64,000 nucleotides of DNA from Bacillota bacterium (GTDB lineage Bacteria; Bacillota; Sulfobacillia; JAJYWN01; JAJZPE01): NCBI GenBank assembly GCA_021787335.1, contig JAJYMC010000024.1:1-64000 (forward strand). Direction: 5' to 3'. This document shows positions 50,285 through 55,112 of the stretch, one piece after another (within the stretch, counting starts at the first letter, position 1; every line of letters starts with the position of its first letter). Made by a program: the position numbers and the translations under genes. The notes below the pieces were generated by a model. It saw only the letters and a list, made by a program, of their open reading frames with translations. It was not told where the DNA came from and made no database searches.

Positions 50285-51157
50285 CTACCGCCCTTCCCCG
50301 TCGTCCCGGCCGGCCGCGGCCTCGAACACCCGGACCAGCCGGTCCACGAAGGCCTTGGCGTTCATCCCCGCCGCCCGAGCCCAATCGAGGAGTTTCCAGC
50401 GCAACTCGATCGGGACCCGGTCGGGGTCCTGGTCCGGCTCGGCCAGAAGGGCGAGTTCATCCGCGCTGAGGGTCACCGGGCCAAGGCCGTCAGCCAGGAC
50501 CTGCGCCTGTAGCGACCCGCCCGACGCCAGAGCCGGGGCGCCGCCGGGCTCGGTGGCCAGGTCGGTCAGGCACAGCGGCGGGAAGAGGACGCACCACCAG
50601 TTGCGCCCGGCGCCATCGCCGATGGACAGCTGCAGGGCGTGGTACCAACCGGACGGGACGACCAGCGAGCCGTAGACCCGCGTCGGGAAGAAGCCCACGC
50701 CGACGGTCGCCCGGACGCTGTAGGCCGGGCCGGTCTCGGCCGCCGCCCGTTCGGCCACGGTCGTGATCCTGGCCAGGTGGTCCCGGGCGTAGGCCTCGGC
50801 GGCCTTCGCGTCGTTCAACTTCGCGAACTCCGGCCCGAAGGCGGCCAGGATGGCGTCGCGCACCTTGAGCTTCTGGGCCTGGTCGCCCGGCTCGTCGCTG
50901 TTGGCCCGGACATGCAGCCGGAAGATGCCCTGCCGGTTCAGGTTGGTCTGGTTGTAGGCCACCTGGTTGCGGCCGGCCCACGCCGCCTGAGCGGAACCCA
51001 GGAGGATGGCGACGACGGTCAGGACCGCGGCCACCCGCCCCACCTCGCGGCGCGAGGGCCAGGTCGGACGGCGGAGCGGCTTCGGCAGCCGGGCCACCGT
51101 TTGGTGCATCGAGTTATCGGTCGCCGGACCGGGTCCGGCACTGTCTTCAGCAGCCAA
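50285..51157 (-). CDS. spoIIR: Stage II sporulation protein R
   Basis: A forespore-made secreted signal that activates SpoIIGA in the mother cell. 290 residues: a cytosolic N-terminus, one membrane/signal segment (about 42-60), then the SpoIIR core FRLHVRANSDEPGDQAQKLK followed by VRDAIL, PSGWYHALQLSIGDGAG and NWWCVLFPPLCLTD. TTG at 51157 stands eight bases after GGAGG; a later ATG at 51109 is possible. It lies 19 bp after sigG, unlike Bacillus subtilis, where spoIIR is elsewhere. Confidence 0.93.
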   Translation of the reverse strand: MAAEDSAGPGPATDNSMHQTVARLPKPLRRPTWPSRREVGRVAAVLTVVAILLGSAQAAWAGRNQVAYNQTNLNRQGIFRLHVRANSDEPGDQAQKLKVRDAILAAFGPEFAKLNDAKAAEAYARDHLARITTVAERAAAETGPAYSVRATVGVGFFPTRVYGSLVVPSGWYHALQLSIGDGAGRNWWCVLFPPLCLTDLATEPGGAPALASGGSLQAQVLADGLGPVTLSADELALLAEPDQDPDRVPIELRWKLLDWARAAGMNAKAFVDRLVRVFEAAAGRDDGEGR

Positions 51158-51176: not shown

Positions 51177-51950
51177 TCAGATATGCTTGCGCATGTGGGT
51201 CAGGGCGGCCTTCTCGAGCCGCGAAACCTGCGCCTGGGAGATGCCGATCTCCTCGGCCACCTCCATCTGAGTCTTGCCCTCGAAGAAGCGCTTCGTCAGG
51301 ATTACCTTCTCGCGGTCGGACAGCTTGCGAAGGGCCTCGCGAATGGCGATCCCCTCGAGCCACGTGTGGTCCTGGTCCTTCTCGTCGCTGATCTGGTCCA
51401 TGACGTAGATGGGGTCGCCGCCGTCATGGTAGATCGGGTCGAACAGGGAGATGGGCTCCTGGATGGCGTCGAGGGCGAAGACGATCTCTTCCCGCGGGAT
51501 CTTGAGCTCCGCGGCGATCTCGGTGATGGACGGCTCGCGGGAGTGCTTGTTGACGAGGCTGTCGCGGACCTGGAGGGCCTTGTAGGCGATGTCGCGCAGG
51601 GATCGGCTGACCCGAATGGGGTTGTTGTCGCGCAGGTACCGCCTTATCTCGCCGATGATCATCGGCACGGCGTAGGTGGAGAACTTGACGTTCTGCCCGA
51701 GATCGAAGTTATCGATCGCCTTCATCAGGCCGATGCACCCGACCTGGAACAGGTCGTCGACGTACTCCCCGCGGTTGTTGAACCGTTGGATGACCGACAG
51801 GACCAGGCGCAGGTTGCCGTTGATGAGCTCCTGCCGGGCATCGTGGTTTCCGGTCCGCATCTGCTGAAACAGGTCGCGCATCTTGGCCGAGGTCAGGACG
51901 GGGAGTTTCGAGGTGTTGACCCCGCAGATCTCCACTTTGTTGACCAGCAC
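51177..51950 (-). CDS. sigG: RNA polymerase sigma-G factor (late forespore)
   Basis: 257 residues: starts VNKVEICGVNTSKLPVL, the SigG hallmark, then region 2 (DARQELINGNLRLVLSVIQR, DDLFQVGCIGLMKAIDNFD, KFSTYAVPMIIGEIRRYLRD) and region 4 (LSDREKVILTKRFFEGKTQM, SQAQVSRLEK). The GTG at 51950 was chosen because it matches the Bacillus SigG N-terminus and GGGGTGG lies six bases upstream; a TTG 13 codons earlier lacks a ribosome site. A terminator and a forespore-type promoter separate it from sigE. Confidence 0.96.
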   Translation of the reverse strand: MLVNKVEICGVNTSKLPVLTSAKMRDLFQQMRTGNHDARQELINGNLRLVLSVIQRFNNRGEYVDDLFQVGCIGLMKAIDNFDLGQNVKFSTYAVPMIIGEIRRYLRDNNPIRVSRSLRDIAYKALQVRDSLVNKHSREPSITEIAAELKIPREEIVFALDAIQEPISLFDPIYHDGGDPIYVMDQISDEKDQDHTWLEGIAIREALRKLSDREKVILTKRFFEGKTQMEVAEEIGISQAQVSRLEKAALTHMRKHI

Positions 51951-51993
51951 CGGCAGCCACCCCACGGTTTCCAGATTCTTGCTGAGCAATCTA

Positions 51994-52155: not shown

Positions 52156-52884
52156 TCACTCCATCTTCTTTATCTCCTTGCGGAGCCGCTTGATGATGCG
52201 CTTCTCCAACCGGGAGATGTAGGACTGGGAGATCCCGAGGAGGTCGGCGACCTCCTTCTGGGTCCGCTCCTGCCCGTCCTTGAGGCCGAAGCGCAACTCG
52301 ACGATGCGGCGCTCCCGGGCGGTCAGCTTGCCGATGGCCCGGCGCAGGAGCAGCCGGTCGACCTCGTCCTCGAGGTTGCGGTAATCGGCGCACTCGGCCC
52401 CATAGACGTCCGAAAGGAGCAGCTCGTTGCCGTCCCAGTCGACGTTGAGGGGCTCGTCGAAGGAGATCTCCGAGCGGGTGCGGCTGTTCCGCCGGAGGTA
52501 CATCAGGATCTCGTTCTCGATGCACTTGGAGGCGTATGTGGCCAGCTTTATCTTCTTGTCGGGGTCGAAGGTGTTGACCGCCTTGATGAGGCCGATGGTC
52601 CCGATGGAGACCAGGTCCTCGATGCCGACCCCGGTGTTCTCGAACTTCCGGGCGATGTAGACCACGAGACGCAGGTTACGTTCGATGAGGATGCCCTTGA
52701 CGGCCTGATCCCCGCGCTTCAGGCGGCCGAGGAGGAAGGATTCCTCATCGGCGCTGAGCGGCGGAGGCAGGGCCTCGGTACTCCCGGCGACGAAGACGCG
52801 CGGGGCCGGCAGGCCGATCGCCTTCCGCAGGCGGACGAGGTTGGCGATGATCGTCCAGCGAAGCCTGGCCAGCGTGCCGAGCAC
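52156..52884 (-). CDS. sigE: RNA polymerase sigma-E factor (early mother cell), pro-form
   Basis: 242 residues. An N-terminal pro-sequence ([20 protein letters not shown], amphipathic, membrane-binding) precedes the conserved [15 protein letters not shown]. Region 2 has [40 protein letters not shown] and [20 protein letters not shown]; region 4 has [20 protein letters not shown]. This matches Bacillus SigE closely, including the pro-region cut by SpoIIGA. GTG at 52884, two bases after the spoIIGA stop, with AAGGGGG upstream. Confidence 0.96.
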
Positions 52885-52886
52885 GG

Positions 52887-53810
52887 TCAAACCCCCTTGG
52901 CGGTTGGTGGGGCCAGGTCCGGGTGCAGAAGGGCGTTGTAGGAGCCGTCCTCCGACAGGGTCCCGGCATAGACACAGACGACCGCGTCGCGCCTGCGGGT
53001 GGGGCCCCCCGAACCGCGCACCGTCAGACCGTCGGGCCTGAACCCGAGCAGAAGGCCGTTCTCCTTGCCCAACGAGGTGAACGGCACGACCCTGACTCTG
53101 GCCAGCCACGGCTCGGGCAGACGGTCGAGACCGGAGAGGGAGCCGATGAACCCTCCGTCGAGCCCCGCCGCGGGGCCCGCCCGGTAGACCTCGATCAGTT
53201 CGACCGGCAGGAGCGGGGCGATGGCGGTCAGCTCCACCACCACCACCGGGTGTCCCGACAGCGGGTCGCGGAGCTGGTTGCCCGTGTCGACGAGGGCGGT
53301 CAGGTCGGCCGGGCGCCCGTCGACATCGACGGATAGGCCGAGCAGGCGGCCCGCCTCGCGGGTCCGCCGGCGGAAGCTCCCCCAGGCCATGCGGCCCGCC
53401 GTCAGGACGATGGCCAGACCCGCGGCCACGGCCCACCAGCGGGCTTCGGACGGGCCGAGGGCGTAATCGGGCCGCAGGGACGACGCGGCCAGGTCGGCCA
53501 CGAGGACGGCCCCACCGAGGAAGACGGCCGCCGAGAGGAAGTACCCGTAAAGGGCGAGGAAGACCGACGGCGTGGTCGGGATGAAGGTCGCGGCCAGCAT
53601 GCCCGCGGCCGCCACGAGCAGTCCGACCAGACCACCGAAAGGCCCGCGGCCGAAGACCAGGACCCACAGCGAATAGGCCGCCCCGACGGCGGCCCCAAGG
53701 GCCAGTCGCCACGGACGCGCCGGGTGGCGGGCGAGCGTCGCCGCGGCCCACAGAAGGGCCAGGTCGACCACGAAATTAGTGAACAGAAAGATGTCGCCGT
53801 AGACCCTCAT
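52887..53810 (-). CDS. spoIIGA: Sigma-E processing peptidase SpoIIGA
   Basis: An aspartic protease that cleaves pro-sigma-E in the mother-cell septal membrane. 307 residues: about five membrane helices in the first 145 residues ([20 protein letters not shown] start typical), then the protease domain with the catalytic Asp near residue 175 in [18 protein letters not shown] at 53810. Operon with sigE, as in Bacillus. Confidence 0.94.
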
Positions 53811-53939
53811 CCTGACTGGCCCACCGCACCCTGGGCGACGGGAGCCGGTCCGCGGGTGGGCGGGGTTTCCTCCCTATCCAATCCATCCTTATGCTCGTCC
53901 CCATCGGCCGATGACCGGTCGCGGCCGCCCACAGGGTGA

Positions 53940-53973
53940 ATTATACCGGGAGGTAACCTCCGAAATTTGTCAA
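53940..53973 (-). promoter_or_regulatory. spoIIG-type promoter with 22-bp spacer (putative Spo0A target)
   Basis: A perfect TTGACA (53968-53973) and a perfect TATAAT (53940-53945) are separated by 22 bp. That spacing is too long for ordinary sigma-A use but is the known hallmark of the Bacillus spoIIG promoter activated by phosphorylated Spo0A. TTTGTCAAA, one base from a 0A box (TTTGTCGAA), overlaps the -35 in inverse orientation. The spacer also holds GGAGGT-T-ACCTCC. The untranslated leader is about 120 bases. Confidence 0.65.
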
Positions 53974-53975
53974 AC

Positions 53976-54005
53976 GAAAAAACCCCGCCGCGAAGGCGAC
54001 GGGGT
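53976..54005 (-). terminator. Terminator after ftsZ
   Basis: ACCCCG(T)CGC-CTTC-GCG(G)CGGGGT followed by TTTTTTCG on the minus strand. It abuts the -35 of the spoIIGA promoter. Confidence 0.85.
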
Positions 54006-54068
54006 CTTGGGGAGCGGATATCAGGGAGGGTCGGCGAGGGTCGGGCAGGGCCCCGGGCCCGTCAGGGT

Positions 54069-55112
54069 CTACTTCTTGCGGAGGAAGGCCGGGATGTCCA
54101 GATCGTCCCCTGGGAACGGCTTGAACTCCAGGTCCTCCTGCGGCTGGCCGCGGCGAGGCCGGTTGTCGAAGCCGGTGGCGATGACCGTCACCCGCACCTG
54201 GTCTTTCATGTCTTCGTTGATGACCGCGCCGAAGATGATGTTGGCCTCGGGGTCGGCCGCCGCGGCGATGATCTCGGCCGCCTCGTTGACCTCGAACAAC
54301 CCCAGGTCCGGGCTGCCGGTGATGTTCAGAAGGACGCCCTTGGCCCCCTCGATGGAGGTCTCCAGAAGCGGGCTGGAGATGGCCGCCTTGGCCGCCTCCA
54401 CCGCCCGGTTGTCGCCGGAGGCGGAGCCGATGCCCATCAGGGCTGAGCCGGTGTCGAGCATGATCGTCCGGACATCGGCGAAGTCCAGGTTGATCAGGCC
54501 GGGCACGGCGACCAGGTCGGAGATGCCCTGGACGCCCTGACGCAGGACGTCGTCGGCGATGCGGAAAGCCTCGACGATGGAGGTCTTCTTCTCGACGACC
54601 TGGAGGAGCCGGTCGTTGGGGATGGTGATGAGCGTGTCGACCTTGTCCTTCAGGTCGGCGATGCCCCTCTCCGCCTGCTGTTGGCGCTTCTTGCCCTCGA
54701 AGGTGAACGGCCGGGTGACCACGCCGACGGTCAGGGCCCCCGATTCCTTGGCGCACTCGGCGACGATCGGCGCCGCTCCGGTGCCCGTCCCGCCGCCCAT
54801 GCCGGCGGTGATGAAGATCATATCGGCGCCCTTGAGGGCCTGAAGGATGGTCTCCCGAGTCTCCTCGGCGGCCTCTCGGCCCACCTCGGGGTTGCCGCCC
54901 GCGCCGAGCCCCCGGGTCAGCTTCGACCCAAGCTGGATCTTGTGGGGGGCGCTGGACAGGTAGAGGGCCTGGGCGTCGGTGTTCAGGGAGATGAACTCAA
55001 CGCCCATCAGGCCGGCGGTGATCATCCGGTTGACGGCGTTGCTCCCGCCGCCGCCCACCCCGACCACCTTGATGAGGGCGAATTGTTCCTTGTCGAGGTC
55101 AAGTTCGAGCAT
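54069..55112 (-). CDS. ftsZ: Cell division protein FtsZ
   Basis: Tubulin-like GTPase forming the Z-ring. 347 residues: [16 protein letters not shown], the GTP loop [12 protein letters not shown], and [11 protein letters not shown] in the T7 region. The C-terminal tail [11 protein letters not shown] is the conserved peptide bound by SepF, FtsA and others. ATG at 55112 behind AAGGAGGT. Last gene of the ftsQ-DUF881-sbp-ftsZ unit. Confidence 0.97.

Follow-up and report, generated by a model that had tools for sequence, protein, structure and literature searches.

The window, the whole stretch of 64,000 nucleotides that was analyzed, carries spoIIGA on the minus strand, with ftsZ as its upstream neighbor and sigE, sigG, and spoIIR on the same strand. 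The orientation and the target gene given in the preliminary description were both right. The locus was compared with two members of the window's genus (L011 and L081) and one member of its family (L004). The closest named relative is the metagenome-assembled genome SKS1.bin113 (L081), whose SpoIIGA is 79% identical, and genomes near Symbiobacterium fell in the window's class in the SpoIIGA tree. The genes and the terminator are as follows:

52887–53810, minus strand: spoIIGA, encoding the pro-sigma-E protease (ATG at 53810; PF03419, E = 6.7e-69)
52156–52884, minus strand: sigE, 242 aa, GTG start at 52884, 2 bp past spoIIGA; sigma-70 domain matches
51177–51989, minus strand: sigG; sigma-70 domain matches
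50285–51157, minus strand: spoIIR, encoding the signal protein for SpoIIGA activation (TIGR02837, E = 1.3e-41 at 50552–51025, under the curated cut-off)
54069–55112, minus strand: ftsZ, with FtsZ sequence motifs in its translation
53977–54008, minus strand: intrinsic terminator of ftsZ (13-pair stem, 4-nt loop, T-run), kept in L004 and L011

Between the ftsZ terminator, which ends at 53977, and spoIIGA lies a candidate promoter, P1, on the same strand as spoIIGA and sigE. Reading the minus strand directly from 53973 to 53940 yielded TTGACA, AATTTCGGAGGTTACCTCCCGG, and TATAAT, with a spacer of exactly 22 bp. The perfect hexamers 22 bp apart that had been described earlier were thus borne out, and so was the near-0A-box over the -35. 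Transcription from P1 would start near 53933. The elements of P1 are as follows:

53968–53974, minus strand: Spo0A box TTTGACA (reverse complement TGTCAAA), overlapping the -35-like TTGACA at 53973–53968; one mismatch to TTCGACA
53946–53967, minus strand: 22-bp spacer AATTTCGGAGGTTACCTCCCGG; the TTTC near its start lies within a conserved block
53949–53961, minus strand: 6-bp inverted repeat GGAGGT-T-ACCTCC in the spacer, judged to be a chance feature
53940–53945, minus strand: -10 hexamer TATAAT of sigma-A type, invariant in the family and conserved phylum-wide

Spacing and conservation of P1

P1 was the sole TTGACA-N15-24-TATAAT match in the window, and no such match arose in 100 shuffles. 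When the 3.5-Mb genome was scanned with spacers of 14–24 bp, 27 perfect TTGACA/TATAAT pairs were identified; the other 26 had spacers of 16 (2 pairs), 17 (13), 18 (8), 19 (2), and 20 bp (1), and GACA-N21-22-TATAAT occurred once in the genome, at P1. Among the perfect pairs of this genome, the P1 spacing is thus a genuine outlier. No sigma-A promoter with a spacer of 16–18 bp was found in 53700–54120. TTTGACA was the sole 0A box with at most one mismatch in 53800–54120, and no distal 0A site was found at this threshold up to 54120.

The sequence CGTTTGACAAA at the 0A box was invariant in the family, and the P1 core from CGTTTGACAAA to TATAATTCAC was nearly invariant while the spacer diverged, which suggests that P1 is under selection. 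Neither the window nor its genus or family showed the upstream half-site, a CA 10 bp up, and the T-run GGGGTTTTTTCGTTTGACAAA was found there instead; the T-run of the ftsZ terminator adjoins the 0A box and occupies the position that the upstream 0A half-site takes in relatives.

The inverted repeat in the spacer might be regarded as an operator or a structural feature by which the effective spacing is reduced, such as a repressor site or a MerR-like twist. A 6-bp palindrome inside the spacer is in keeping with such a role, its probability being approximately 2% in a shuffled spacer of the same composition. MerR-type sites have spacers of 19–20 bp, and their palindromes are conserved with their regulators. 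The palindrome of the window was absent from the same-genus and same-family relatives, and inverted repeats inside spacers occurred in 5 of 151 promoters against 2.9 expected. We rejected the repeat as a functional element because it is unconserved and near chance frequency, and we regard an operator-like role as extremely unlikely. The repeat noticed earlier is present at 53961–53949; its functional role did not stand.

Spacer geometry and the -35 element across Bacillota

We scored 154 distinct spoIIGA upstream regions blindly for TTGACA/TATAAT-like pairs with spacers of 13–27 bp. The results revealed 107 matches at 21 bp and 47 at 22 bp, against 17.6 and 17.4 by shuffling; in this loose scan, spacers of 14 bp (37) and 24 bp (40) were moderately elevated, and most others were close to background. 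A stricter scan, which required an exact GACA and at least five of six -10 positions, included 60 further Bacillota regions for a total of 213 and yielded 116 matches at 21 bp and 39 at 22 bp, with 0–5 at every other spacer. Taking the best match per region at spacers of 20–23 bp gave 115 regions at 21, 38 at 22, and 1 at 20. GACA-N21/22 before a TATAAT-like -10 was accordingly present in 153 of the 213 regions, and the strict signal was missing in 59.

The preliminary description had considered the 22-bp spacing itself to be kept. The spacing was mostly 21 bp, and it was 21 bp in both members of the genus (L011 and L081), the nearest relative included, and 22 bp in L004 of the same family; with the window's own 22 bp, both lengths thus occur inside the genus. 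A SpoIIGA tree built quickly from 108 rows, confined to loci with a spacer of 21 or 22 bp, gave at least 16 changes between the two states, of which 9 are required by branches with good support. One-base switches that recur and yet stay at 21–22 bp indicate that the geometry is under selection and not merely inherited. The comparison with near relatives thus upheld the 21–22-bp range but not the literal 22. The proposal that the Spo0A mechanism at this promoter is ancient was supported, as the 153 regions combine this spacing with a 0A box.

Upstream of spoIIE, 22 of 30 genomes exhibited the same geometry, 19 of them with 21 bp and 3 with 22 bp. In the window's own genome, the spoIIE upstream region (L288:580–613) reads GCGACA-N22-TACAAT, with a weaker -10, immediately downstream of an apparent tRNA cluster.

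Other arrangements were observed in particular groups. In the window's class, L042 and L043 (f24 genomes) had no exact GACA-N21/22 and carried GACC-N22-TAAGAT with a CGACA approximately 10 bp downstream; this extra CGACA suggests a shifted or third 0A half-site. Desulfotomaculum/Pelotomaculum-like genomes exhibited an inverted repeat across the spoIIG -10 (CCCTGGC..TATAAT..GCCAGGG), followed by a T-run in several. It was seen in L094, L154, L159, L165, L171, L172, L106, L118, L151, L153, L160, and L182, and its arms co-vary (18 observed versus 5.4 expected). This repeat may be an ftsZ terminator straddling the promoter.

To describe the "-35", we compared 151 promoters. The base preceding GACA was T in 68% and C in 25%, and the position before that was nearly unconstrained. 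CA stood exactly 10 bp up from the CA of GACA in 109 promoters (72%) and was lacking in 42, and a conserved block followed GACA, with T at +7 and +8 and Y at +9 (the G of GACA being 0). The second half-site marked by this CA is an accessory feature and does not define the promoter type. The Spo0A box is TTCGACA, with TGTCGAA as the other-strand core (PMC3485338). The rarity of TT before GACA (37/151; TTGACA approximately 25%), together with the frequent CA 10 bp up, points to a tandem 0A box and not to a -35 hexamer. The conserved "-35" is a predicted Spo0A box (nnGACA), in most cases paired with another half-site one turn of the helix farther upstream, and the window's perfect TTGACA is a T/C coincidence inside the 0A consensus. 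We therefore rejected the perfect TTGACA as the conserved unit, in which respect the earlier account has to be replaced by the nnGACA box. No trade-off between a perfect TTGACA and the upstream half-site was detected, TTGACA being no commoner where the half-site was lacking (Fisher p = 1.0).

These results bear on whether P1 is an ordinary sigma-A promoter, weakened by its spacing and acting without an activator, in which the 0A match is accidental. TTGACA does resemble TTCGACA, and a 0A box with one mismatch is not rare, 0.32 being expected in 53800–54120. However, there is free drift phylum-wide at the first position of the hexamer, whereas GACA, the preceding T/C, and the CA 10 bp up are kept, and an unregulated weak promoter would be expected to move toward 17 bp. 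We consider such a promoter very unlikely and prefer the reading of P1 as a promoter activated by Spo0A.

A candidate sigma-E-type promoter in the spoIIGA leader

The leader between P1 and spoIIGA contains a second promoter-like element, P2, and a conserved block:

53910–53915, minus strand: candidate P2 -35, GTCATC; its CAT, 20 nt up from CATA, is conserved in all family members
53885–53894, minus strand: candidate P2 -10, GCATAAGGAT, conserved in L011, L004, and L081
53862–53874, minus strand: leader block GGGAGGAAACCCC, nearly invariant in four family sequences

The block GGGAGGAAACCCC may be a sequestered Shine-Dalgarno-like hairpin, and no known RNA element was found in the leader with Rfam. 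A better promoter in 53811–53939 had been suggested as a check on P1. That interval does contain a further promoter-like element, P2, and no better sigma-A promoter; being of sigma-E type, P2 would be an addition to P1.

The P2 pattern was defined as CAT...CATA with its two C residues 19–21 nt apart (20 in most cases) or as ATA/CTA...CATA with a distance of 19. It was found in 27 of 50 leaders of the class, against 0.95 in shuffled and 2 in reversed sequences; the pattern was derived from these same leaders, and shuffling corrects only partly for that choice. Elsewhere in the phylum, with Bacilli-like loci set aside, it was present in 44 of 142 leaders (6.7 shuffled), and it was found in none of 20 Bacilli-like leaders, a set chosen by record names and sequence appearance and not by formal classification. 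The pattern lay mostly 20–100 bp downstream of the P1 -10. An independent control was provided by spoIVA, a known sigma-E gene, upstream of which the pattern occurred in 14 of 30 cases (0.67 shuffled); the 3' end of ftsZ (2/48) and the inside of spoIIGA (0/50) served as negative controls. The sigma-F gene spoIIR was rejected as an explanation for the CATA motif, as no comparable enrichment was found upstream of it (3/27 versus 0.97).

The sigma-E consensus is ATA-N16-CATA (PMC3789822). The CAT–CATA distance of 20 in the window fits sigma-E, and the -35 reads TCATC, leaving the last base of ATA unmatched. We read the P2 pattern as a probable sigma-E promoter, which would confer direct sigma-E autoregulation; in this genome, where the -35 is imperfect, P2 is a candidate. 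The literature searched contained no mention of a sigma-E-type element in the spoIIGA leader, which is weak evidence of novelty.

If P2 mainly drove the operon, the extended-spacer promoter could be a decaying relic. The occurrence of a P2-like element in all family members and in more than half of the leaders of the class, and the missing upstream 0A half-site in the window, are compatible with this possibility. On the other hand, family members share an almost unchanged P1 core around a diverging spacer, and a sigma-E promoter alone cannot begin sigma-E synthesis. A relic is very unlikely indeed, and P1 as the Spo0A-dependent promoter remains our reading, with P2 beside it. On balance, we lean slightly toward the view that, outside Bacilli, spoIIG often has tandem promoters, namely, an ancient Spo0A/sigma-A promoter with fixed 21–22-bp spacing and a sigma-E leader promoter that amplifies sigE and the protease in the mother cell. 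In this view, the leader promoter was lost from Bacilli or never arose there, and they depend on the accumulation of Spo0A~P instead.

Proposed mechanism and comparison with known systems

In B. subtilis, Spo0A~P contacts sigma-A at spoIIG, where its target is polymerase that already occupies the promoter, and spoIIG activation has been described by a polymerase repositioning model. K356 and H359 of B. subtilis SigA are implicated in Spo0A contact. We compared the C-terminal end of SigA with the closest solved Bacillus-type SigA (7ckq), and the equivalents of both residues were kept; most RpoD proteins retain these residues, so they discriminate little. The genome encodes one Spo0A, whose DNA-binding domain is 71% identical to that of B. 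subtilis Spo0A (PDB 1lq1), and the recognition helices are nearly identical (TTPSRVERAIRHAIEVAW here and TTASRVERAIRHAIEVAW in B. subtilis). Residues 227–240 read GNFDVINNLFGYTV here and GNIDSISSLFGYTV in B. subtilis, with four changes in 14 residues; the putative sigma-A activating region differs at 229 (I to F), 231 (S to V), 233 (S to N), and 234 (S to N). Spo0A and SigA are both encoded, and their predicted contact surfaces are well conserved.

We conclude with considerable confidence, from the sequence comparisons, that P1 drives the spoIIG operon (spoIIGA-sigE) as a sigma-A promoter dependent on Spo0A~P and that evolution has kept its 21–22-bp geometry. Transcription from P1 probably reads on into sigG. 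SigA-RNA polymerase would bind the perfect -10, but with a spacer of 22 bp and no hexamer at 16–18 bp it would be unable to reach a -35 at the usual position. Phosphorylated Spo0A would bind TTTGACA over the -35 position and contact SigA region 4, restricting activation to the onset of sporulation. Spo0A binding, sigma contact, and activation in this organism are all inferred. Evolution appears to have kept the Spo0A box, the 21/22 bp, the -10, and the TTTY block just past the box. As the upstream half-site is absent, the near-consensus downstream 0A box probably bears more of the binding in the window's lineage. The conservation of extended spacing with a Spo0A box at spoIIGA across Bacillota suggests that the control mechanism of Bacillus spoIIG is very likely ancestral in Bacillota and not Bacillus-specific.

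P1 itself belongs to a known promoter type, and the added interest comes from the comparison across Bacillota and from the leader element. The comparison amounts to a phylum-wide test of a promoter mechanism known from one species, in which 21–22 bp is held at spoIIG and spoIIE while the spacer sequence and the first "-35" base drift. The conserved geometry predicts which bases matter, and the Spo0A box with its -10 spacing would be a useful marker for early sporulation promoters in uncultured Bacillota. The leader element raises the question of sigma-E autoregulation outside Bacilli.

The spacing and mechanism of B. subtilis spoIIG were reportedly worked out by the Moran and Spiegelman groups (in work attributed to Baldus 1994, Schyns 1997, Bird 1996, and Seredick 2007). 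The window shares with that promoter the gene, the orientation, the 0A box over the -35, the 22-bp spacer, and a TATA-type -10; unlike it, the window lacks the upstream half-site of the tandem pair and has an adjacent ftsZ terminator and an extra sigma-E-type leader element. For C. difficile spoIIGA, PMC3789822 and PMC3485338 describe a sigma-A promoter that has been mapped, carries GTGACA and TATAAT boxes, and is bound by Spo0A with low affinity. Its -35-like element is GTGACA where the window has TTGACA, and TATAAT is common to both. The spoIIE promoters, which are Spo0A-activated and sigma-A-dependent, exhibit the same GACA-N21/22-TATAAT geometry at a different gene, with a weaker -10 in the window's own genome. 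Compared with sigma-E promoters, P2 has the same CAT/CATA distance as the spoIVA promoters of the class, whereas its -35 in the window is TCATC in place of ATA and its -10, GCATAnnnAT, is an imperfect CATAnnnT.
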